Of a stretch of DNA of 24,520 bases, positions 1,400 to 23,968 are shown in pieces. Below the pieces are notes generated by a model. That model saw only the letters and a list, made by a program, of their open reading frames with translations, did no database searches and was not told the origin of the DNA. Made by a program: the position numbers and the translations under genes. The number at the start of each line of letters is the position of its first letter. Position 1 is the stretch's first letter. Location: positions 1 through 24,520 of IMG/VR virus record IMGVR_UViG_3300047276_000545; one strand, given 5' to 3'. This stretch comes from a virus.

Positions 1400-1664
1400 T
1401 CATGAGCCAATGGACGCGCGATGGGTTGACCTCCTGCCCGACAATGGAGAGAGCCTTCGATATGCTGTCGGCGGTACCGTCTACTTCTTCGGTGCGTCGG
1501 TCAAGATCACCCGCATCACTGTCCAGGAAGACCTACCCGGCATGTACTGTAATATGCGGCGGGTGTGCGTTTGGGCCGGCGACAAGCTGGCCTTTGAAGC
1601 GCCGCTGCACAACGTCCAGGGCGTCGGATACCTGCCGGTGAAGGAGCCCACCAATGACCACTGA
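1392..1664 (+). CDS. Beta-rich hypothetical protein
   Basis: 90 residues, ATG 1392 with AAGGA about 9 bases upstream. The composition (VYFFGASVKITRITVQED..., VCVWAGDKLAFEAP) suggests a small beta-barrel. No motif or family recognised. It overlaps the previous gene by 8 bases and the next by 11, so it is an internal gene of the operon. Confidence 0.55.
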   Translation: MSDHEPMDARWVDLLPDNGESLRYAVGGTVYFFGASVKITRITVQEDLPGMYCNMRRVCVWAGDKLAFEAPLHNVQGVGYLPVKEPTNDH

Positions 1665-2943: not shown

Positions 2944-3000
2944 GTTTGTGTTTATCAACACGTCTCTCCGCATCGCCGCTCATCGCAGATCCCGTCAACT

Positions 3001-3075
3001 CAACGGCCGCTCCTTCGGGAGCGGCACCTCCGAACGACCGATTACCTGCCGTTTCGAGGTGCCGCTACTGGCATC
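3001..3075 (+). promoter_or_regulatory. Four-segment alternative-hairpin element, copy 1
   Basis: Hairpin P1 is GCCGCTCC (3006-3013), loop TTCG, GGAGCGGC (3018-3025). Hairpin P2 pairs AGCGGCACCTC (3020-3030) with GAGGTGCCGCT (3056-3066). Hairpin P3 pairs GGTGCC (3058-3063) with GGCATC (3070-3075). P2 shares a strand with both P1 and P3, so P1+P3 and P2 exclude each other, an attenuator-like 1:2+3:4 versus 2:3 layout. There is no U-run after P3, so it is not a simple intrinsic terminator. The following 55 bases up to the ATG at 3131 are C-rich and G-poor. The gap 2944-3130 holds nothing else I can identify. Confidence 0.7.
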
Positions 3076-3130
3076 ACTCTGCGACTCTTCTCAACACTCC
3101 GCATCGCTTCTCAACTCTAGGTATACAACC

Positions 3131-3721
3131 ATGAAATTCACATCTGCAACTGTCACGCTTCAGTCCCTGAGCCCTTACAGCCAGTCGTTCCTGCACAACT
3201 CACCTCGCCTGGAAGGCGAGAGCGTCGGAGACCACGACGCGCGAACGTGGCTTAGCAAGGCCCATATTTCAAAGAATGGCACGCTGCTCATTCCGGCGAC
3301 CGCCATGCATCAAGCCATTGTGGCGGCTGGCAAATATTCTAAGAAGCAAATTCCGGGCCAGGGTAAGGCCACTTGGACCGCCAAGCTGAAAAGTGGTCTG
3401 ATGATTGCCGAAGACATCGACACCGGCATTCCAAAGGGGGACATCCAGTCGACCACCATCCAGTGTGATGCGCGCGGTATGACCGGAGCGCAGAAGTCAA
3501 CCCTCGTGTCGCGCACCTTCCCCATCGTTCCTTCCTGGGAAGCTACGTTCGATGTGTGGGTGCTCGATCCGATCATCACGAAGGACATTTTCGCAGAAAT
3601 GGTCAATATCGCTGGCCTGTTCATCGGAATTGGCCGCTGGCGTCCAGAAATGAATGGTGGCATGAATGGTCGATTTCGCCTCACCAAACTGTCATGGCAG
3701 GACAATCGCGAGTTCGTTTGA
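3131..3721 (+). CDS. Conserved-looking phage protein with Gly-rich C-terminal motif; function unknown
   Basis: 196 residues from ATG 3131. The longer upstream frame runs through the hairpin element and is rejected. The protein has the shape of a recurrent phage family of unknown function: an N-terminal strand, an 'R-T-W' segment after an acidic patch, 'LLIPATAMHQAI', a Lys/Gly region, 'TFPIVPSW', and a C-terminal Gly-rich motif GIGRWRPEMNGGMNGRF. A Gly-rich loop at the end of a beta-rich protein recalls RNA-binding RAMP/Cas7-type proteins, but I offer this only as a hypothesis. Hairpin elements lie directly before (copy 1) and directly after (copy 2) the gene, so it is separately controlled and may itself bind these elements. 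No clear Shine-Dalgarno: only TAGG about 11 bases upstream. Confidence 0.7.
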   Translation: MKFTSATVTLQSLSPYSQSFLHNSPRLEGESVGDHDARTWLSKAHISKNGTLLIPATAMHQAIVAAGKYSKKQIPGQGKATWTAKLKSGLMIAEDIDTGIPKGDIQSTTIQCDARGMTGAQKSTLVSRTFPIVPSWEATFDVWVLDPIITKDIFAEMVNIAGLFIGIGRWRPEMNGGMNGRFRLTKLSWQDNREFV

Positions 3722-3726
3722 ACATT

Positions 3727-3803
3727 CAACGGCCGCTCCTTCGGGAGCGGCACCTCAAAGGAACTTAGACTATGGGTTTCTCCGAGGTGCCGCTACTGGT
3801 ACC
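3727..3803 (+). promoter_or_regulatory. Four-segment alternative-hairpin element, copy 2
   Basis: P1: GCCGCTCC (3732-3739), TTCG loop, GGAGCGGC (3744-3751). P2: AGCGGCACCTC (3746-3756) with GAGGTGCCGCT (3784-3794). P3: GGTGCC (3786-3791) with GGTACC (3798-3803). The stems match copy 1, but the P2 loop (3757-3783) is completely different and contains a Shine-Dalgarno and ATG. It begins 10 bases after the stop of the 196-aa gene, so it may also act as that gene's 3' structure. Confidence 0.7.
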
Positions 3804-3834
3804 AAACCCTCTCAACGCGCCTCGACTCCACTAG
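3772..3834 (+). CDS. Possible 20-codon leader peptide inside hairpin copy 2
   Basis: AAGGA at 3758-3762 lies 9 bases before ATG 3772, which opens a 20-codon frame ending at TAG 3832-3834. The start lies in the P2 loop and the frame runs through the 3' strand of P2 and both strands of P3. Translating ribosomes would therefore disrupt P2 and P3. The peptide has five prolines and three leucines and no resemblance to known leaders. Copies 1 and 3 have no equivalent ORF, so it may be coincidental. Confidence 0.3.
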   Translation: MGFSEVPLLVPNPLNAPRLH

Positions 3835-3857
3835 ACTCCGCGCCTCTCCCGGCAATG

Positions 3858-3930
3858 CAACGGCCGCTCCGAAAGGGGCGGCACCTCCGAACGACCGATT
3901 ACCTGCCGTTTTGAGGTGCCGCTTGGCACC
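3858..3930 (+). promoter_or_regulatory. Four-segment alternative-hairpin element, copy 3
   Basis: P1: GCCGCTCC (3863-3870), GAAA loop, GGGGCGGC (3875-3882). The UUCG tetraloop is replaced by a GNRA tetraloop and one A-U pair by a G-U pair, so the hairpin is kept. P2: GGCGGCACCTC (3877-3887) with GAGGTGCCGCT (3913-3923). P3: GGTGCC (3915-3920) with GGCACC (3925-3930). The 25-base P2 loop differs from copy 1 by a single base. Downstream to ATG 3974 the leader is again C-rich and G-poor, with AAGGA at 3961. Confidence 0.7.
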
Positions 3931-3973
3931 AAATCGCTTCCACTCCACTCTCCGCAACTCAAGGATTAAACTT

Positions 3974-4468
3974 ATGCCTGCTTTCGTCTCTACCGTTGAA
4001 CGTCGCATGATCCTCGAAACGATCATCGCACGACTCTTCAATCTGACGCCTGAACAGATCCTCACCCATGAGGACAGCATAAAGATTTCGGGCATGTCCA
4101 TGGATGAAACGCGCTACCTTGTGCGTCGGGCTATGCTGATGCTCAACAAGTCGCACGGGCTCGTTTTCGAGAACGTGCGGAATGTGGGCTATAAGCGCCT
4201 CATGACTGCGGCCGTGCCTGACGTAGGAAAGCAGAGCCGCCACAAGATTTACCGGCAGGCTCGCGCAACGTCGCTCAAGTTAACCAACTTTGCTGCCAAG
4301 ACCAATGGTCTAGCTCCGGAAGTCGCGAAGGAACTGAATCGCGAAATCGCCATCGCCGGACTGATCGAATTGGCAGCTTCCAAGGGGATTGCATCCCGCA
4401 TTGAACAGACCGAAACCCTGCCGACCACGCGCGCTGATGTGGTCAAGGCCATCCTGGGAAAGATTTGA
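3974..4468 (+). CDS. Hypothetical protein with winged-helix-like segment
   Basis: 164 residues from ATG 3974, with AAGGA 9 bases upstream; the longer frame upstream passes through hairpin copy 3. Residues about 10-75 (MILETIIARLFNLTPEQILTHED..., ETRYLVRRAMLML..., FENVRNVGYKRL) resemble the DNA-binding wing of OmpR-type winged helices, where 'TVRGVGYRL' closes the domain. The middle (SRHKIYRQARATSLKL) is basic and the end helical. DNA binding is an inference from this pattern. It is the first gene after the duplicated hairpin elements and is probably controlled by them. Confidence 0.6.
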   Translation: MPAFVSTVERRMILETIIARLFNLTPEQILTHEDSIKISGMSMDETRYLVRRAMLMLNKSHGLVFENVRNVGYKRLMTAAVPDVGKQSRHKIYRQARATSLKLTNFAAKTNGLAPEVAKELNREIAIAGLIELAASKGIASRIEQTETLPTTRADVVKAILGKI

Positions 4469-7404: not shown

Positions 7405-7546
7405 CGTTTTCATGGACTGGATGGACGACCTTCCGATGCAGCAGCAGAGCGTTGTCGTCCTGGCAACGCGCGGCCCTGACGGCGTCGCGAAGCACCATCC
7501 TTGCAAGGACGTGGTGCGGGCCTATCGTATATCGGAGACCGAGTGA
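7397..7546 (+). CDS. 49-aa hypothetical protein upstream of thyA
   Basis: ATG 7397 with GGAGG about 10 bases upstream, overlapping the previous gene by 8 bases; its TGA shares a base with the thyA ATG. A beta-hairpin-like segment (SVVVLATRGPDGVAKHHP) suggests a small barrel. No family recognised. Confidence 0.5.
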   Translation: MPSVFMDWMDDLPMQQQSVVVLATRGPDGVAKHHPCKDVVRAYRISETE

Positions 7547-8943
7547 TGATACATCCTGACTTTGAATATGGCGTACTCGCACGGCGCATCCTTGCGGAGG
7601 GTGTCGAGAGGCCCGACCGCACTGGCACCGGAACACTGAGCGTCTTCGGTCATCAGATGCGCTTCGATCTATCTCAGGGCTTCCCACTGCTGACCACGAA
7701 GCGTGTATTTTGGAAAGGTGTCGTAGACGAACTATTGTGGTTTTTGAGTGGTTCTACAAGTGTAGAGGATTTGCCGCAAAGAACTCAGCAATGGTGGAAT
7801 CCTTGGGCTGATTCTGATGGAAACTTGGGGCCTATCTACGGAGAGCAGTATAGGAAATCTCGTTGGTGGTTTGAAGTAACTCCAAAGATATTTCCTATAC
7901 CTAAACTTCCGGTAAAGAAGGAAGGATTGTTTTTAGGTATAGGGGATTTAGGATCTTATCGGTTGTCAACTGGGATTAATTCATTAGGTGAGCCTGAGCA
8001 TATCACAAACCTTAAAAATACTTGGCGGGATATGCTAAAAAGGTGCTATAGTCCTAATGCCAAGGAATATAAAGCATATGGTGCTATTGGAGTTCATGTT
8101 GATCCAGAGTGGTTGTCGTTTTCAAATTTTTGCAGAGACGCGCAAAAATTGCCGCAATGGTCATTGAAATTAGAATATCCTAAAAAATATACAATTGATA
8201 AGGATATTCGATTTGCATCTAATAGATATTCGTTAAAAACGTGTATGTGGGCGACACCTGAAGAACAAGGCTGGAATACATCAACTGGAACACCATTTAC
8301 AGCAATAAGTCCGAAAGGTGAGAAATTTCTATTTCCTAGTTTAGGAGATATGAGTAGGTCGGAAGGTACAAACGTCTCCGCTATTCATAGATGTTTGAAT
8401 GGAAAGTTGAAAACACATCATGGTTGGTCAAATTTTGAATATACAGGAGGTGTAAAACGTTTTAGACAAGTCGATCAATTACAATTATTGATCTCCGAAA
8501 TTAAACACAATCCAGAATCTAGGAGAAATCTTATAAACCTCTGGCATACTCCGGCTATGCAGCACGGTAATTTACCATGTTGCCATGGATCTGTTATTCA
8601 ATTTTATGTTGAAAACAATCGGTTGTCATGCCATACATACCAGAGATCGGGAGATGTTCTGCTTGGAGTTCCTGTAAATATTGCATCGTATGCACTATTT
8701 ACACATATGATCGCGCATATATGCGAACTAGATGTTGGTGAACTAATTTACAGTATCGGTGACGCTCACATTTACCTCAACCATGTTGAGCAAATCACCG
8801 AGCAGTTGCAGCGTGAGGCGCGACCGTCGCCAGAACTCCTTATCACCCGAAATGTGAAGGATATCGACGACTTTAGCCCTTCCGATTTTGAGCTACGGGG
8901 ATATGATCCTCATCCCGCAATCAAAGCACCAGTGGCGGTGTGA
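7546..8943 (+). CDS. thyA: Thymidylate synthase ThyA with in-frame endonuclease-like insertion
   Basis: 465 residues in one open frame; ThyA alone is about 265. Residues 1-105 and about 307-465 form a complete ThyA: RPDRTGTGTLSVFGHQMRF (folate/dUMP binding), GNLGPIYGEQYR, then DQL...NPESRR, the catalytic Cys in LPCCHGSVIQFYV (C345 or C346), YQRSGD, VPVNIASYALF with Asn378 (marks dUMP rather than dCMP specificity), IGDAHIYLNH, and the C-terminal YDPHPAIKAPVAV. It methylates dUMP to dTMP using methylene-tetrahydrofolate. About 200 extra residues sit between QYRKS and the RQVDQ helix, in a loop that is also longer in eukaryotic enzymes. I see no intein splice residues, so the chimera may function unspliced. 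Starts at ATG 7546 behind GGAGA. Confidence 0.9.
   Translation: MIHPDFEYGVLARRILAEGVERPDRTGTGTLSVFGHQMRFDLSQGFPLLTTKRVFWKGVVDELLWFLSGSTSVEDLPQRTQQWWNPWADSDGNLGPIYGEQYRKSRWWFEVTPKIFPIPKLPVKKEGLFLGIGDLGSYRLSTGINSLGEPEHITNLKNTWRDMLKRCYSPNAKEYKAYGAIGVHVDPEWLSFSNFCRDAQKLPQWSLKLEYPKKYTIDKDIRFASNRYSLKTCMWATPEEQGWNTSTGTPFTAISPKGEKFLFPSLGDMSRSEGTNVSAIHRCLNGKLKTHHGWSNFEYTGGVKRFRQVDQLQLLISEIKHNPESRRNLINLWHTPAMQHGNLPCCHGSVIQFYVENNRLSCHTYQRSGDVLLGVPVNIASYALFTHMIAHICELDVGELIYSIGDAHIYLNHVEQITEQLQREARPSPELLITRNVKDIDDFSPSDFELRGYDPHPAIKAPVAV
7861..8460 (+). mobile_element. HNH/AP2-type homing-endonuclease-like domain inserted in thyA
   Basis: Residues about 106-305 of the thyA frame. The core (about 155-245) matches the phage homing-endonuclease family pattern: T-W-R-D-M-L-K-R-C-Y-S-P...Y-K-A-Y-G...V-D-P-E-W-L-S-F-S-N-F, then Y-T-I-D-K-D-I and an N-R-Y-S-L-K-T-C-M-W-A-T-P-E-E-Q segment. 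Residues about 250-300 (FTAISPKGEKFLF...VSAIHRCLNGKLKTHHGWSNF) look like the small DNA-binding repeat such proteins carry. The segment is clearly more AT-rich than the phage. Borders are approximate to about five codons. No Cys/Ser start and no His-Asn or Gly-Asn end are present as an intein would need. A group I intron with a read-through frame is the main alternative. Confidence 0.75.
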
Positions 8944-10624: not shown

Positions 10625-12988
10625 GTGACTCATACGCAGTTGCCCACCGACTACCAGTCGTTCATCCATCGCAGCCGCTATGCCCGGTTTCTCGACGCTG
10701 AAGGGCGTCGAGAGCACTGGAATGAAACTGTTGGACGCTACTTCGACTTTTTCGAAGGACACCTTGACAAGTGGCATAATTATAAGGTGTCGCCGCTTCT
10801 GCGTAGTGAGTTGGAAGACGCGGTTCTGACGTTGCAAGTCATGCCGTCTATGCGCGCACTCATGACTGCCGGCCCCGCCCTTGAGCGCGAAAACCTTGCC
10901 GGTTTCAACTGCGCCTATTGTCCGATTGACCGGCTTCGCGCATTTGCTGAGATCCTCTATATCCTCATGTGTGGCGTGGGCGTAGGGTTCTCGGTCGAGC
11001 GCCAGACAATCAAACAACTTCCAACGCTGCCGCTTGACTTCGTTCATGTAGATAAAACCATCGTTGTCGCTGATTCCAAGGAAGGCTGGGCAGCAGCATT
11101 CGAGCAGTTGTTATATCATTTGATTGCCGGCGAAATTCCGAAAATCAACACCGAGAACGTTCGCCCAGCCGGTGCACGGATTATGATCTTCGGTGGACGT
11201 GCCAGCGGTCCTGAGCCACTGCGAGCGATGTTTGAGTTCGTCATTCGCATTTTTGTCAATGCGCGAGGCCGCAAACTCACATCGTTTGAATGCCATGAGA
11301 TCGTCACCAAGATTGGTGAAATCGTCGTCGTGGGTGGTGTGCGGCGTGCGGCGCTGATCTCTCTCAGCAACTTGTCTGACCAGCGTATGCGCGATGCCAA
11401 GAGCGGAAATTGGTGGGTTGACAAGCCACACCTCGCTCTAGCGAATAATTCCGTGGCCTACACCGAGAAGCCAGAAGTTGGCGTCTTCATGGAAGAATGG
11501 TTGTCGCTCTATCGTTCCAAGTCAGGAGAGCGCGGTATCTTCAATCGCGAAGGTGTCATTCAGAAGATCCTCAAGGGTGGTCGTCGCGATCATCGATTCG
11601 ACTTCGGTTTGAATCCATGCGTGACCGGCGATACGCTTATGCTAACTTCTGACGGCTATGTTCCGATCAAGGACACTATTGGACGGCCGACCGAAATTTG
11701 GAACGGCTACACATGGTCTGAAGTCGTTCCGTTTAGCACTGGTGTAAACCCCTTGCTTCGGATTTCGTTTTCAGATGGAAGTTCTATCCGCTGCACACCA
11801 AAACATAAATTCATTATGTGCAATTACACCCGCGTTAAAGCCGAAGATTTGGTAGTCGGACATACATTAAAGTATTTCAATATGCCGAAAGGTATAAAAA
11901 ATAGTTATCTCGACAACCCTATTACCGTAACTTCGGTTGAAGATCTGGACATCAGCGAAGAAACTTTTTGTGTCACAGAGCCTATGAACCATAGTGTTAC
12001 GTTCAACGGCATTGTGACAGGAAATTGTGGCGAGATCGTTCTTCGTCCGCGCGGCCTTTGCAACTTGTCTGAAGCTGTGATTCGCGAAGACGACACCCCT
12101 GCATCCCTCTATGAGAAGGTGCAACTGGCCTCGATCATCGGAACATGGCAGTCGACGCTAACTCGGTTCAACTTCGTCGAACCCGAATGGGAGAAGAACG
12201 CCGTCGAGGAACGCCTTCTTGGTGTATCGCTAACCGGCATTTACGACAATGCCCTGATGCGTGGTGACAAGGGACATACTGTCCTGGGGACGGTACTGCA
12301 CGGTCTCAAGTCGGCGGTCATCAAGGCCAATCGAGAAGAGTCCGACCAGATCGGCATTACGTCATCTGTAGCAACTACCACGATCAAGCCCAGCGGCACC
12401 GTTTCCCAGCTTGTCAATTGTCCGAGCGGTATCCACCAGGGTCATTCGCCGTGGTACATCCGCAGGGTGACGTGTGATAATAAAGATCCTCTATGTCGCT
12501 TCATGATCGCTCAAGGCGTTCCGCATGAGCCACACGCTACGAAGCCTGACATGATGACGGTGTTCGCATTTCCGGTGCACCTCAGCCCCGCTACAGTCAC
12601 TCGTAACGATGTGACGGCCGAACAGCACCTTGAGCTTGTGAAGACCTACGGGAATCACTGGTCGGAACATGCCGTCTCATGTACGATCAGCGTACATGAG
12701 CACGAATGGCCTACGGTCGGAGGGTGGGTGTATAATCACTTCGATGACGTGGTGGGGCTGTCCTTCCTTCCGCATTTCGAGGACGATTCGAGCTACATGC
12801 AAATGCCCTATGAAACGGTGTCGCAAGAGCGTTATCTCGAATTACTGGAGGCCATGCCGGCGAAAATCGACTGGAACGGCCTAGCCGAGTTCGAGGCAGG
12901 CATCGACACCGTAACAGCAACTCGCGAATTTGCCTGCGTTGGCAATGTTTGCGAGATTATTGACGCGCAGAAGCCAACGGATGCTTGA
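10625..12988 (+). CDS. nrdJ: Class II (adenosylcobalamin-dependent) ribonucleotide reductase with mini-intein
   Basis: 787 residues from GTG 10625, with AAGG about 9 bases upstream; about 651 remain after intein removal, near the ~740 of monomeric Lactobacillus-type RTPR. Active-site landmarks: NCAY (Cys96, redox), LNP + CGE (Asn330, radical Cys468, Glu470), GLCNLSE (Cys479, redox partner), PSGTVS..V in the phosphate-binding C-terminal half, and the C-terminal redox pair C-V-G-N-V-C (Cys771, Cys776). The Cys468-Cys479 spacing of 11 equals Cys408-Cys419 of RTPR. It reduces ribonucleotides to deoxyribonucleotides using a cobalamin-derived thiyl radical and needs no oxygen or second subunit. The 55 bases upstream hold only the ribosome binding site. 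The enzyme must be spliced to be active because the intein separates the radical cysteine from Pro331. Confidence 0.9.
11618..12025 (+). mobile_element. Mini-intein in nrdJ at the radical cysteine
   Basis: 136 residues, precursor Cys332 to Asn467. Block [20 protein letters not shown]. Block [10 protein letters not shown] (TxxH). Block [13 protein letters not shown], then Cys+1. There is no LAGLIDADG or HNH domain, so it cannot home by itself. The penultimate residue is Gly instead of the usual His. The insertion point between Pro and Cys of the LNPCGE motif is a known RNR intein site. Composition is slightly richer in AT than the exteins, most clearly in its second half. Confidence 0.9.
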
Positions 12989-13505: not shown

Positions 13506-13858
13506 ACCGGACCATTCTCGCTGCCGCCATCTTCGCAGTGCTCATCGTTCCCGCCGCCGCTGGTAGCGGTGACTGCTACAAGACGGCTAAGAACCAGACT
13601 GACGTGGAACAGTGTGCGATCCATGGCATTCGCGCCGAGCAGGCTGCCACGAAGGCGCTGCTTGCGAAGCTCGCGCCGTACGCCGACTCGCCTGCGGTGC
13701 ATCGGCGTACCGTGAAGCATTTTGAGCAGCTTCAGTACGATGCGATTGTGAAGTGCGAGAACGAACAGCCGGTGAATGAGCAGATGCTCATTTGCATCCA
13801 CGGCTCGTTCGCCGGCTTCACCAAGGTCATTCAGGAAGTTTACGCCAAGGTGAAGTGA
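13502..13858 (+). CDS. Secreted Cys-containing protein, LprI/DUF1311-like
   Basis: 118 residues from ATG 13502. A clear signal peptide spans residues 1 to about 20 (M-N-R-T then a hydrophobic core ILAAAIFAVLIVPAAA, with cleavage after A-A-A). The mature part begins G-S-G-D-C and has four cysteines. The order 'C..aknqtdveqCa', a helix of Ala/Lys, 'LQYDAIVKCEN' and 'LICIHG' resembles the LprI-like (DUF1311) family, some of whose members inhibit lysozyme in the periplasm. The match is loose. In a phage this could protect the cell wall against lysis or superinfecting phage. It shares a base with the methyltransferase start (TGATG). Confidence 0.6.
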   Translation: MNRTILAAAIFAVLIVPAAAGSGDCYKTAKNQTDVEQCAIHGIRAEQAATKALLAKLAPYADSPAVHRRTVKHFEQLQYDAIVKCENEQPVNEQMLICIHGSFAGFTKVIQEVYAKVK

Positions 13859-16299
13859 TGAGTGTTGAAATCCTGGCAGGCGACAATCGCGACCATCTGC
13901 GCCGGCTCATTGCAGCCGGTGTCCGCGTCCATAGCGTCGTCACAGATCCGCCCTACGGCCTTACGTCCATCACCAAGCGCTTCGGCAAGGAAGGTAGCGC
14001 CCCTGCCAAGTACGGAAAGGATGGTGCCTTCGCGCGAGGAAGTAAGGGATTTATGGGTAAGTGCTTCCATCCTAACACTGACATTATGACAAAAGTCGGA
14101 TGGAAGCGTATTACGGACATTCAGAAAGGTGAAATTGTTGCTACTCTAAACCCAAAAACTCGGGATTTGGAATGGCAATCTGTTGAGCAAACGCATGTGT
14201 ATCCCTTTGAAGGGGATATGGTACATGTAAAACATCGGTCTGCTGAACAGATGGTAACTCCAAACCATCGAATTGTTGTATCCTACGATGGAGGCCCAAC
14301 TCTTACGATGGTGGAACCACTGACAACTAAGACGCACTTTCACCTATTTGCACAAGCCAATCCTAGCAGTGGGATTAAGAACGATCCTGTCATTATTGTA
14401 TCGGAACGAGAATATGGAAAAGATAGAAAAATTGTACAAGAGCGTGATGAATTTAAGGCTAACGCCTTCTTTAGGTTTTTAGGTTTGTATCTAGGAGACG
14501 GTTACGTTTGTGCTCGGACTAACGATCATCCTGCAAATGACTTTTTTGGATTTGCGGTAAAGAAAAATCGTAAATTGAATATTATTAGACAGACCTTGAC
14601 GGAATTGGGAATTAGATTTACAGAAACACCTAGTAAATCTAATAAAACTACTAATTTTTATTGTTATAATTTTGCTTTACTTGGGTTTCTAAAAACTCTA
14701 GGTAAAGCAACAACTAAACATATTCCGTGCTGGGTTTTTGATCGAGACGCATCAGAACTAGAGGAACTATATCTTGGGTTAATGGAAACAGACGGTTGCA
14801 AATATGGTAAGAACCAGGAATCATATTCCACATGCTCTAAACAACTGGCCGAAGATTTTCAACGTCTTTGCTTACTTACCGGACGTTCTGCAATTTCAAT
14901 ATTCAATCCCGGAGGTGCGATCGTAAACATTTCTGAACATGATAGTATTAGATCTGATAGTTATACACTTAGCGTTTTACAACATGGAAAACGTATGTAT
15001 GGAGAACATAGTGAAACTAGAAGTAATGTAATCTTTACTATGCCTTACGATGGGAATGTGTATTGTATTGGTGTACTAAAACACCATATCATTTATACAC
15101 GTTTCAATGGAAAACCTGTTTGGTCTGGCAATTCGTGGGATGCCACCGGCATCGAGAACGATCCCGAGTTCTGGCGGCTCATCCACGATATTCTCCTGCC
15201 AGGAGGGTACTGCTTTGCGTTCTCAGGCGCTCGCACTGGGCATCGGCAGGCTTGTGCCATGGAAGATGCCGGCTTCATTATGCACCCGATGCACGGATGG
15301 GTCTACTTCCAAGGTATGCCTCACGCTACGAATCCGGCTCCTGGCGTTGACCGGTTAATGGGTGTAGAAGGGCGTAAGGGTGATACCGGCGCATACATGC
15401 CAGCCTCACCATATGCCCAACAGTGGGATGGCTGGCGACACGGAACGCAAGCACAGAAGCCTGCCCTCGAACCCATCTTCCTCGCACAGCGCCCCTACAG
15501 CGAAAAGACCGGCGCGGCCAATTTGCTAAAGCACGGCGTTGGTGCGGTGAACATTGACGGCTGTCGCGTGCCGTCCACTGGTGAAGGTCGTCATCGAACA
15601 AACGAAGCATCGCAGGAACGTCGCTACGACAAAAATGGTAGCACGAATTTTGCACAGACACCCGGCCCGCGTGGTGGCGATCCTACAGGGCGTTGGCCAT
15701 CGAACCTATTCCACGACGGCTCGCCGGAAGTCGTAGCGTTGTTCCCTGACTCTAATGGGCAACTCGCTCCTGCCAGGAACGACGGCAAATCGCAAGGGAA
15801 CGCCGTGTACGGCGATTTGAAGAACATCACAACCAATCCTGAGCCGCGCGGTGACTCGGGCTCAGCGGCCCGCTTCTTCAATTCCTTTCCGCCTGTCCTC
15901 TGCCATCCCAAGGCGAATAAGAAGGATCGTGCGGGCTCCCCACATCCAACGGTGAAGCCCATCGGCCTCATTCGACATCTGGTGCGCCATATCACACCCC
16001 CTGGCGGGACGGTGCTCGATCCGTTTGCAGGCAGTGGCACCACGGCTGAGGCTGCTCAACTTGAGGGAATGAATTGCATCCTCATGGAAGCCGAGCAGGA
16101 CTATATCAAATTCCTGCTTGAGCGCTTTTCACTTGAAGAAGTGGGCAACCCAGGTTTTGATCTCGCCAATGAAGACGCTGGCGAGCCATCCACCGACGCC
16201 CAAGATACCACTGAAGGCCATCACGACAATACCGCTATAAGCAGCCCATTTCGTGCGGAACAACTTGCCATCACGCAGTTCCTCGGCGTGTTCTTCTAG
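13858..16299 (+). CDS. Beta-class DNA methyltransferase (N4-C/N6-A) with LAGLIDADG intein
   Basis: 813 residues from ATG 13858; about 456 after intein removal. Catalytic motif IV TDPPYG is at residues 29-34, and the AdoMet motif I LDPFAGSGTT is near residues 720-729 at the C-terminal end. This order defines the beta class. GFMGK+SWDA and LLPGGYCFAFSGARTGHR match phage and bacterial relatives. 'HPTVKPIGLIRHLV' is the usual segment before motif I. It would transfer methyl to adenine N6 or cytosine N4; the target is not visible. No restriction enzyme is adjacent, so it is likely an orphan protective methyltransferase. The last ~57 residues (after LLERFSLEE) are acidic, lie antisense to the minus-strand gene, and are probably not part of the fold. 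Confidence 0.87.
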   Translation: MSVEILAGDNRDHLRRLIAAGVRVHSVVTDPPYGLTSITKRFGKEGSAPAKYGKDGAFARGSKGFMGKCFHPNTDIMTKVGWKRITDIQKGEIVATLNPKTRDLEWQSVEQTHVYPFEGDMVHVKHRSAEQMVTPNHRIVVSYDGGPTLTMVEPLTTKTHFHLFAQANPSSGIKNDPVIIVSEREYGKDRKIVQERDEFKANAFFRFLGLYLGDGYVCARTNDHPANDFFGFAVKKNRKLNIIRQTLTELGIRFTETPSKSNKTTNFYCYNFALLGFLKTLGKATTKHIPCWVFDRDASELEELYLGLMETDGCKYGKNQESYSTCSKQLAEDFQRLCLLTGRSAISIFNPGGAIVNISEHDSIRSDSYTLSVLQHGKRMYGEHSETRSNVIFTMPYDGNVYCIGVLKHHIIYTRFNGKPVWSGNSWDATGIENDPEFWRLIHDILLPGGYCFAFSGARTGHRQACAMEDAGFIMHPMHGWVYFQGMPHATNPAPGVDRLMGVEGRKGDTGAYMPASPYAQQWDGWRHGTQAQKPALEPIFLAQRPYSEKTGAANLLKHGVGAVNIDGCRVPSTGEGRHRTNEASQERRYDKNGSTNFAQTPGPRGGDPTGRWPSNLFHDGSPEVVALFPDSNGQLAPARNDGKSQGNAVYGDLKNITTNPEPRGDSGSAARFFNSFPPVLCHPKANKKDRAGSPHPTVKPIGLIRHLVRHITPPGGTVLDPFAGSGTTAEAAQLEGMNCILMEAEQDYIKFLLERFSLEEVGNPGFDLANEDAGEPSTDAQDTTEGHHDNTAISSPFRAEQLAITQFLGVFF
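14062..15132 (+). mobile_element. Full-length LAGLIDADG intein in the methyltransferase
   Basis: 357 residues, precursor Cys69 to Asn425, with Ser+1. Block A: CFHPNTDIMTKVGWKRITD. Block B: TPNHRIVV (TxxH). Two LAGLIDADG helices: FLGLYLGDGY and LYLGLMETDG. Block F/G: NVYCIGV...VWSGN, then Ser. As in the nrdJ intein the penultimate residue is Gly. It interrupts the conserved GFMGK-x-WD motif. The intein DNA is distinctly AT-rich against GC-rich exteins with sharp borders, a sign of recent arrival; both catalytic Asp positions (D-G and D-G) are kept, so it may still home. Confidence 0.92.
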
Positions 16300-22542: not shown

Positions 22543-23968
22543 TTGTCGCCTCTGGATAATCGACGTTTACGACCACGTCGAATGTGTCAAAATACGGCAG
22601 AATGCCTGTTCCCCAAGTCGTGAGAACCCATTCTTCCGCACCATCGAAGGAATCTGGTGCAATGCCCATAAACATTTGCGTGATTTCCGGGTAGCGAACG
22701 TTAACAATCCAATCCGACTGGTCAAGAAAGCCCAGAGCGCCAAGTCCCCAATTATCAAGAACCCATTGCGCCGCCTCGTCGTATGGTGGAATTGTAATTT
22801 CAGACGGTAGCGCTTCGAGCGCCTGGATTGACAATGTCGTTTGCGCCGACTGATCTGTAATCCATTCCATGGTCAGGTCGTCGGTCGCAAAGCGCGAGAC
22901 GTACAGCCAACATACCATCTCGATCTGATTTTGAGACAGAGTCGTCGGCCACGATGGCGTTACACGAATTTGCGATTGTGTACCAGCTACATTGAAAATA
23001 TTAATAATTCGTCGCGGAATAAAACGACCATCATCTGTAATTACAACGATATATTTATGCAACGGATCGCGTACAAATTGATTGTATGTTTCAATACCAT
23101 CAACTAAAATATTCTGACCACCTTCGTTAATTCCAGACAATACCTTAAAATCTGGAATCCATGTCGGCATCAGAAACTCGTGAGCACGCCCTCGCTGGCG
23201 CCGTACAAACTTTTGAATCTCTTCAATCTGCGTATCGGTCTGTCGTAGGAATGTAGACGTGCGAAGGTAACTTCCAAATGCAATTGGCGTATAGGTCAGA
23301 ATGCGACCAGCATCAAAATCCAGTTGTTCATATGTTTGAGAATATTGCGACTCGACAGGGTTCGACCAGTTGGGGCGGTCAATCAGAAGTTCTCGATTCT
23401 CGAAATGAATCGCATTGTAATATCCATCATCGCGTGGCTCGCTGCCTGGATCGATGTTAAAAGTGAATTGCAACTCAGCAACGCCGTTCGTTTGCGAACT
23501 GACACGCATCAAACTTTCAAGTTGGCCTTGCACACCTAGGTATACAAGCGCGCCCGCTGCCACGTCTGCGGTAAGTGCGTCTGTCAATGTAAGGACAGTG
23601 CCTGTAATCGCTGTTACCGTCGTCCACTGACCATGCGGCAAAACGAGTGTGATACCGGCCTGTAGCCATGTAGGAACGCGCGACACCGTCAAACTGGTCG
23701 AGCCACTTAGCGCTGTTCCGATTGCAGCAACGCGCCGTACCGGATCGCGCATCGTAGTCATCTTGCCCATTTCCGAACTCAGGAAACGATGCAGTTGACG
23801 TTGGCCGTCACTATCCAACGTCACTCGGAACTCGACTTGTCGGCGAGGTGTCTTACGCCATGCTGTACGCTGCTCACGACCGGCCCTGGACGTGATGATT
23901 TCAGTCAAATAACTGATCGTCACGTTGACCGAGTTTTTCCAGTTCGGTTCGAAAGGCCAGAGCTTCAT
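22523..23968 (-). CDS. Tail protein (distal-tail/hub type) with C-terminal duplication
   Basis: 481 residues, ATG 23968 sharing a base with the tape-measure stop. It opens KLWPFEPNWKNSVNVTISYLTEIITS and contains RTAWRKTPRRQVEFRV, a pattern common to tail proteins between tape measure and DUF2163 hub in alphaproteobacterial siphophages. A beta-rich insert (about 100-150) is followed by 'QTYEQLDFDAGRIL' and a C-terminal Trp-rich repeat pair. Probable baseplate/distal tail component. No enzymatic motif seen. Confidence 0.72.
   Translation of the reverse strand: MKLWPFEPNWKNSVNVTISYLTEIITSRAGREQRTAWRKTPRRQVEFRVTLDSDGQRQLHRFLSSEMGKMTTMRDPVRRVAAIGTALSGSTSLTVSRVPTWLQAGITLVLPHGQWTTVTAITGTVLTLTDALTADVAAGALVYLGVQGQLESLMRVSSQTNGVAELQFTFNIDPGSEPRDDGYYNAIHFENRELLIDRPNWSNPVESQYSQTYEQLDFDAGRILTYTPIAFGSYLRTSTFLRQTDTQIEEIQKFVRRQRGRAHEFLMPTWIPDFKVLSGINEGGQNILVDGIETYNQFVRDPLHKYIVVITDDGRFIPRRIINIFNVAGTQSQIRVTPSWPTTLSQNQIEMVCWLYVSRFATDDLTMEWITDQSAQTTLSIQALEALPSEITIPPYDEAAQWVLDNWGLGALGFLDQSDWIVNVRYPEITQMFMGIAPDSFDGAEEWVLTTWGTGILPYFDTFDVVVNVDYPEATNGLQLL
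22547..22774 (-). repeat. Internal protein duplication in the 481-aa tail protein
   Basis: Residues 399-429 and 444-474 align: W-V-L-D-N-W-G-L-G-A-L... F-L-D ... VNVRYPE against W-V-L-T-T-W-G-T-G-I-L... Y-F-D ... VNVDYPE. A 14-residue linker separates them. The DNA of the two copies has diverged, so the duplication is old. Confidence 0.7.

Follow-up and report, generated by a model that had tools for sequence, protein, structure and literature searches.

A VIPR-like locus in a tailed phage with structured, covarying RNA elements set between C-x-C pentanucleotide tracts

The window, that is, the whole stretch of 24,520 nucleotides analysed here, is a fragment of a tailed-phage virus record (IMG/VR IMGVR_UViG_3300047276_000545) with tail genes at 17.8-24.4 kb. 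The same virus is represented by IMG/VR contig 3300021430_000526, which is 100% identical over 8.6 kb and reaches 2 kb beyond the window. No DNA relatives of the region were found among GenBank phages. The locus consists of two genes, three copies of a hairpin cluster of about 72 nt, and four C-rich tracts, as follows.

2956-3005, plus strand: tract U1, 10 units (CAACA CGTCT CTCCG CATCG CCGCT CATCG CAGAT CCCGT CAACT CAACG); score 16/18, with 0 of 2000 local shuffles as high
3004-3077, plus strand: element E1; P1 3006-3013/3018-3025 (UUCG loop), P2 core 3026-3030/3056-3060 plus an extension, P3 3058-3063/3070-3075
3072-3116, plus strand: tract U2, leader of gene A, 9 units (CATCA CTCTG CGACT CTTCT CAACA CTCCG CATCG CTTCT CAACT); score 17/18, with 0 of 2000 local shuffles as high
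3131-3721, plus strand: gene A, 196 aa, between E1 and E2; putative Vipr-like RAMP protein (phrog_4652) with a Gly-rich GIGRWRPEMNGGMNGRF loop
3730-3805, plus strand: element E2; P1 3732-3739/3744-3751 (UUCG loop), P2 core 3752-3756/3784-3788, a differing apical hairpin, P3 3786-3791/3798-3803; no tract on its 5' side
3803-3862, plus strand: tract U3, about 12 units (CAAAC CCTCT CAACG CGCCT CGACT CCACT AGACT CCGCG CCTCT CCCGG CAATG CAACG); 16/18 over nine units, with 0.25% of local shuffles as high
3861-3932, plus strand: element E3; P1 3863-3870/3875-3882 (GAAA loop), P2 core 3883-3887/3913-3917, P3 3915-3920/3925-3930
3935-3959, plus strand: tract U4, short and weak, leader of gene B (CGCTT CCACT CCACT CTCCG CAACT); score 10/12, with 4% of local shuffles as high, suggestive only
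3974-4468, plus strand: gene B, 164 aa, after E3; candidate vap (Vipr-accessory protein)

An earlier note on this DNA had described the three elements as four-segment structures with stems P1, P2 and P3, able to fold as 1:2 with 3:4 or as 2:3, and every one of these pairings is present. P1 is GCCGCTCC/GGAGCGGC with a UUCG loop in E1 and E2; in E3 the loop becomes GAAA and the arm GGGGCGGC, one U-A pair turning into U-G while the stem is kept. P2 has the form (A/G)GCGGCACCTC/GAGGTGCCGCT, with a 3' arm identical in all three copies, and P3 joins GGTGCC to GGCATC, GGTACC or GGCACC, the loop and P3 variants being just those reported. The P2 loop of E2 is unrelated in sequence to that of the other copies, yet forms a 9-bp hairpin. 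A scan of both strands of the 24.5 kb for the four-segment layout (P1 of at least 7 bp, P2 of at least 9 and P3 of at least 6, with overlapping arms) found E1, E2 and E3 on the plus strand and none on the minus strand. Strict element patterns, searched in IMG/VR and 84,980 genomes, found only the same virus, plus unrelated GC hairpins. A tRNA-like reading, considered for the CCA in which the elements end, was rejected, ARAGORN having found none. E2 alone carries a ribosome-binding-site-like AAGGA and a 20-codon open reading frame (MGFSEVPLLVPNPLNAPRLH) at 3772-3834 on the plus strand, across segments 3 and 4.

The stretches seen in the earlier note as C-rich, G-poor leaders are present and are tandem 5-nt repeats, a period that it had not noticed. 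The units follow CNNCK, that is, C-x-C alternating with a dinucleotide NN. Tracts were scored over nine units by counting C at two phases (maximum 18), against local shuffles that keep composition. In the whole window only U1, U2 and U3 reach at least 16/18, and the maximum in dinucleotide-shuffled windows is 14. The x of C-x-C is T, G or A in the window. A small GTGTT/AACAC hairpin at 2946-2962 (plus strand), just before and running into U1, is possibly this tract's own 5' element.

A guide to these features is provided by VIPR (Viral Interference Programmable Repeat), which a 2026 preprint (PMC13142463) presents as a phage-encoded, RNA-guided system related to CRISPR proteins and suggests as a possible CRISPR ancestor. 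As the preprint sets out, the system has a RAMP protein, Vipr, marked by an RRM core, a G-loop and a thumb, together with an accessory gene, vap, and with vrRNAs, each vrRNA having 9-16 tandem YNNGG units and a structured tail, and reading DNA with a 1-nt skip. A sequence search of PDB with gene A alone points to entry 36pp, "SUSP1 Vipr protein", at E 0.37. A profile of 17 gene A relatives, SUSP1 not included, finds chain 36pp_D at E=3.1e-6, and hhalign of this same profile against SUSP1 Vipr gives 93.8% probability. Phage DSL-LC04 encodes a weak homologue (27%), which in turn matches 36pp_D at 1.9e-5. The Gly-rich loop of gene A is invariant among its relatives. AlphaFold models from single sequences, run with no alignment, had pLDDT of 35-48 and were unusable, and PADLOC, NCBIfam and Pfam have no model for gene A or gene B. 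From its sequence, the gene A product is predicted to be related to Vipr, the RAMP protein that VIPR systems encode. Gene B, its product a putative DNA-binding protein, is likely vap, because its homologues adjoin vipr in about 20 related loci; it also weakly resembles the neighbour genes of SUSP1, LESphi2 and Medea1 around an RG.GY motif.

Single-protein searches for close relatives returned the same virus only. An alignment-based search succeeded: the scan of IMG/VR with a Vipr alignment found 345 relatives, from which 80 loci were kept. Those 47-100% identical to gene A (L061-L089) carry their CxC tracts exclusively on the vipr strand. A tree built from 68 Vipr proteins places the window in a clade that is CxC in 23 of 23 members, with support of 100/100; CxC labels also cluster over the whole tree, where bootstrap values are not fully settled and some branches are long. 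In the tracts of the relatives, x is G in 2256 of 3048 units, and all 16 dinucleotides occur at the hypervariable position.

A covariance model built from E1-E3, the check that the earlier note had proposed, found plus-strand copies in eight contigs (L062-L067, L069 and L071; E 4e-8 to 9e-4). In L064, 11 copies alternate with tracts of about 15 units. A tract lies on the 3' side of 23 of 23 elements and on the 5' side of 21; coding background never scores 9/10 or above. In the window the figures are three of three directly after and two of three before, E2 being the exception; the second L062 copy likewise has no 5' tract. Several other relatives have tracts separated by different hairpins or by none, and no element follows the tracts that immediately precede vipr and vap. 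In one such relative (L085, 3085-4600, plus strand), about a dozen CxC tracts are seen with another hairpin family between them (CTCTCGAC...GTCGAGAG).

The base-pair-preserving changes from which the earlier note had argued are suggestive at best in three copies, and become convincing with 23 elements from relatives. These sequences are related, so the independent events are few. Because parts of P1 and P3 were wrongly placed by MAFFT, full pair counts were taken by segment parsing, and shuffle-tested counts from well-aligned columns only. Over the 23 elements, P1 shows C-G, G-C, A-U and U-A replacements at several positions, the P2 core shows U-A, C-G and A-U replacements, and P3 shows G-C to A-U and U-A to A-U. 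In the aligned P2 columns 99.5% of cells are paired, with 15 double changes, a count that 0 of 500 shuffles equalled and no slid control approached. Outer P1 covaries strongly, like P2, while P3 taken alone covaries more weakly, 58 of 500 shuffles scoring as high. The complementarities, whose loss in related phages would have told against structure, are thus kept, and this covariation supports the selection on RNA structure that had been claimed.

We consider it highly probable (roughly 85%) that the elements are structured separator or processing elements of a CxC-type VIPR guide-RNA array. This reading draws on the RNA structure and its conservation, the period and code of the repeats, the Vipr homology and the synteny. 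It would have the plus strand transcribed and processed, with the tracts as guides for gene A in DNA targeting and the elements delimiting them. The gene A product would be a RAMP-like guide-RNA-binding protein, with the gene B product as its accessory. The C-rich non-coding stretches, in which C-x-C alternates with a hypervariable dinucleotide, would be vrRNA variable tracts, and U1 is proposed as one such variable region. Most likely, the elements would mark where neighbouring vrRNAs end within one longer transcript and shield those ends. P1 lies right against the constant 3' end of the tract before it, at the position of the tail hairpin in other VIPR RNAs; P2 with its apical stem offers a plausible site for processing by a host RNase (for example RNase III); and P3 stands ahead of the next tract. 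During transcription P1 would form first, be partly displaced by the 2:3 pairing, and be restored once segment 4 captures segment 3. We prefer "separator" to "tail": no element follows the tracts that lead into vipr and vap, and E2 lacks a tract ahead of it, so that tracts can do without the element and the element does not serve as a tail alone.

The locus belongs to, or is a variant of, VIPR. Like the type of Escherichia phage SUSP1 (PDB 36pp), it has a Vipr/RAMP homologue of about 20 kDa with a neighbouring accessory gene, non-coding 5-nt tracts of constant trinucleotide and variable dinucleotide on both sides of vipr, and structured RNA adjoining the tracts. U1-U3, at 9-12 units, fall within the 9-16 given in the preprint. 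P1 abuts the 3' end of U1, of U3 and of the tract before 21 of 23 elements, as an invariable 3' tail would, and as a tail hairpin does in the LESphi2 and Medea1 arrays, but the tracts leading into vipr and vap are not followed by it and no tract precedes E2. The differences are that Vipr here is only about 20-25% identical to those of SUSP1 and LESphi2, that a P1/P2/P3 cluster with conserved alternative pairings stands where SUSP1 has a pseudoknot tail, and that the constant part is C-x-C rather than GGY. This last point, CxC/NN against the GGY/NN of the VIPRs characterised in the preprint (which allows "a related consensus"), argues against the reading, but lowers only the claim of typical VIPR membership. 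Class 1 CRISPR arrays (with Cas7, Cas5 and Cas6 RAMPs) similarly combine a RAMP-family protein, a programmable guide array and structured, conserved intervening parts, but here there is no spacer-repeat array, there are no cas genes, and the code is one of 5 nt with gaps. The earlier statement that no described family has this layout thus stands for Rfam and falls for the locus as a whole: the kind of system is already described, while the element is in no Rfam family, and the main text of the preprint (PMC13142463) makes no mention of a separator element with alternative folds.

Both pairings, 1:2 with 3:4 and 2:3, look selected on sequence grounds, because column 21 in segment 2 covaries two ways, with column 6 (segment 1, P1) and with column 65 (segment 3, P2 extension), and because of triple changes in L062. 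But for two exceptions, column 21 is U with A at both partner columns or C with G at both, and the two L062 elements each compensate a change in segment 3 by changes in both segment 2 and segment 4. The mutually exclusive pairings proposed in the earlier note are borne out by these changes. The minimum free energy path of a growing transcript runs from P1 through a P2-extended fold to P1 with P3, the computed alternatives lie within about 0-7 kcal/mol of each other in all copies, and some copies favour a junction in which segments 1 and 4 pair as well. Regulated switching of the element is possible. We hold it doubtful that the elements are bistable switches within the VIPR array, using 1:2 with 3:4 against 2:3 (with 1:4) to govern vrRNA processing or translation of vipr/vap mRNA: the near-equal folds and the triple covariation of segments 1-2-3 and 2-3-4 are what such a switch would have, but unregulated strand exchange of a simple geometry could by itself lead to shared sequence among the segments, neither a ligand nor a trigger is known, no element precedes U1, and the element is absent from many relatives. 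Equally tentative is a fuller version, in which a CxC-reading branch of VIPR would use the two selected folds of a strand-exchanging separator to decide between guide RNAs and vipr/vap mRNA.

It is unlikely that the vrRNAs come from the opposite strand, with the code G-x-G/NN and with each element forming the 3' tail of one vrRNA, three in all (U4-E3', U3-E2' and U2-E1'). The tract on the 3' side of every element would then lie 5' on the minus strand, the guide repeats would be G-rich and resemble the GGY type, and the apical part of P2 in E1 and E3 does fold better on the minus strand, a caveat to the plus-strand reading. Minimum free energy z-scores relative to shuffles are -3.8 (E1), -4.1 (E2) and -2.8 (E3) on the plus strand and weaker for every copy on the minus strand (-2.8, -3.2 and -2.1). 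Against the minus-strand reading, the UNCG and GNRA loops and G-U pairs are those of the plus strand. More than half of the relatives' tracts have AA in their 3'-terminal units, whether a hairpin element or a gene comes next, and U1 does so too; because the AA units sit at the 3' end, the tracts have a polarity on the vipr strand. The VIPR tracts inspected in SUSP1, LESphi2, Medea1 and DSL-LC04 are all on the vipr strand as well. Some of these arrays are unannotated: GGY/NN tracts with GCTG..CAGC tail hairpins lie beside a Vipr homologue in Pseudomonas phage LESphi2 (2500-2950, minus strand) and in Medea1 (1500-1620, minus strand). In DSL-LC04 (23047-23366, minus strand), GGY/NN tracts and a 21-bp hairpin lie upstream of the Vipr homologue, which is annotated as a helix-turn-helix regulator and has a strongly skewed leader of 5-nt G-rich repeats; the region is apparently an unannotated VIPR locus.

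The earlier note had seen the logic of a transcription attenuator, with Rho-dependent control or antitermination of the HK022 put type as plausible. In the form weighed here, the elements would act in cis on genes A and B, while the C-rich leaders would serve as rut (Rho-utilisation) sites. The elements do stand in front of genes A and B with C-rich, G-poor leaders, and their conserved exclusive pairings recall trp-type attenuators, in which four segments likewise pair as 1:2 with 3:4 or as 2:3; HK022 put (PMC9378689), found in early transcripts and likened here by description, is also a phage RNA of about 70 nt with two consecutive stem-loops. We nevertheless judge this very improbable. No U-tract follows the elements, as that note had stated, and no terminator-like site exists at 3000-3970. 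The C-richness is a strict 5-nt code, seen around the same protein gene in dozens of phages, with or without the hairpin element, and the 11 copies of L064 sit between tracts, most of them not in front of any gene. Trp-type attenuators differ in having a terminator U-tract and a conserved leader peptide (here a 20-codon frame occurs in E2 only) and in not lying between guide tracts; put, for which binding of putL/putR to the beta-prime zinc-binding domain is characteristic, differs in that the present elements have many copies in a guide-like array and an alternative third stem. No Rfam model, ribozyme families included, matched the window at gathering thresholds, permissive E-values gave only sub-threshold chance matches there, and a permissive search of five relatives gave no match. 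That the elements are DNA-level repeats (a replication origin, recombination sites or mobile palindromes) whose RNA folding is incidental is scarcely credible, for all their perfect dyads, the 11 copies in L064 and the 112-nt, 78% identical duplication formed by E1 and E3 with their 5' tracts, since the G-U tolerant changes, the loop types and the better z-scores all favour plus-strand RNA and the elements always stand in vipr orientation beside tracts.

On the preferred reading of a CxC-type VIPR array, this locus and those related to it offer many naturally occurring cases of a second repeat chemistry, with C-x-C in the place of GGY and arrays holding up to about twelve guides. The release or capping of single guides could be accounted for by a covarying separator RNA, and direct tests become feasible both of how guides are processed and of how far the RAMP protein tolerates another constant motif. 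Should the separator prove to be regulated through its folds, an RNA-guided anti-phage array would contain its own RNA switch. As a caution, what looks in a phage like a C-rich "leader" with hairpins may be a guide array and not an attenuator or rut site.

Patterns with a 1-nt skip, derived from U1 and U3, each found one exact 18-base match in IMG/VR. Both look like chance, because neighbouring units fail to extend either match and the skips of the U3 match are not at codon wobble positions; no convincing target for these patterns was found in IMG/VR, and in local data the 1-nt skip showed no enrichment over other skips.

Elsewhere in the window, a thymidylate synthase frame at 7501-8943 (plus strand) has an in-frame HNH/NUMOD (I-HmuI-like) insertion, around which Rfam found no group I intron. 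A 787-aa adenosylcobalamin-dependent ribonucleotide reductase is encoded at 10625-12988 (plus strand); other phages match it in two pieces, covering about 82%, suggesting from sequence that it may carry an insertion. The DNA methyltransferase at 13792-16299 (plus strand) has an N-terminal part resembling Hint/LAGLIDADG intein modules. The longer contig, L008, has a GTGCCGCGCC/GGGCGCGGCAC hairpin at 1-60, before its first gene. Neighbouring genes share an 84% identical stretch, at 9-64 of the window and 1818-1873 of L008, which is likely a tandem duplication.
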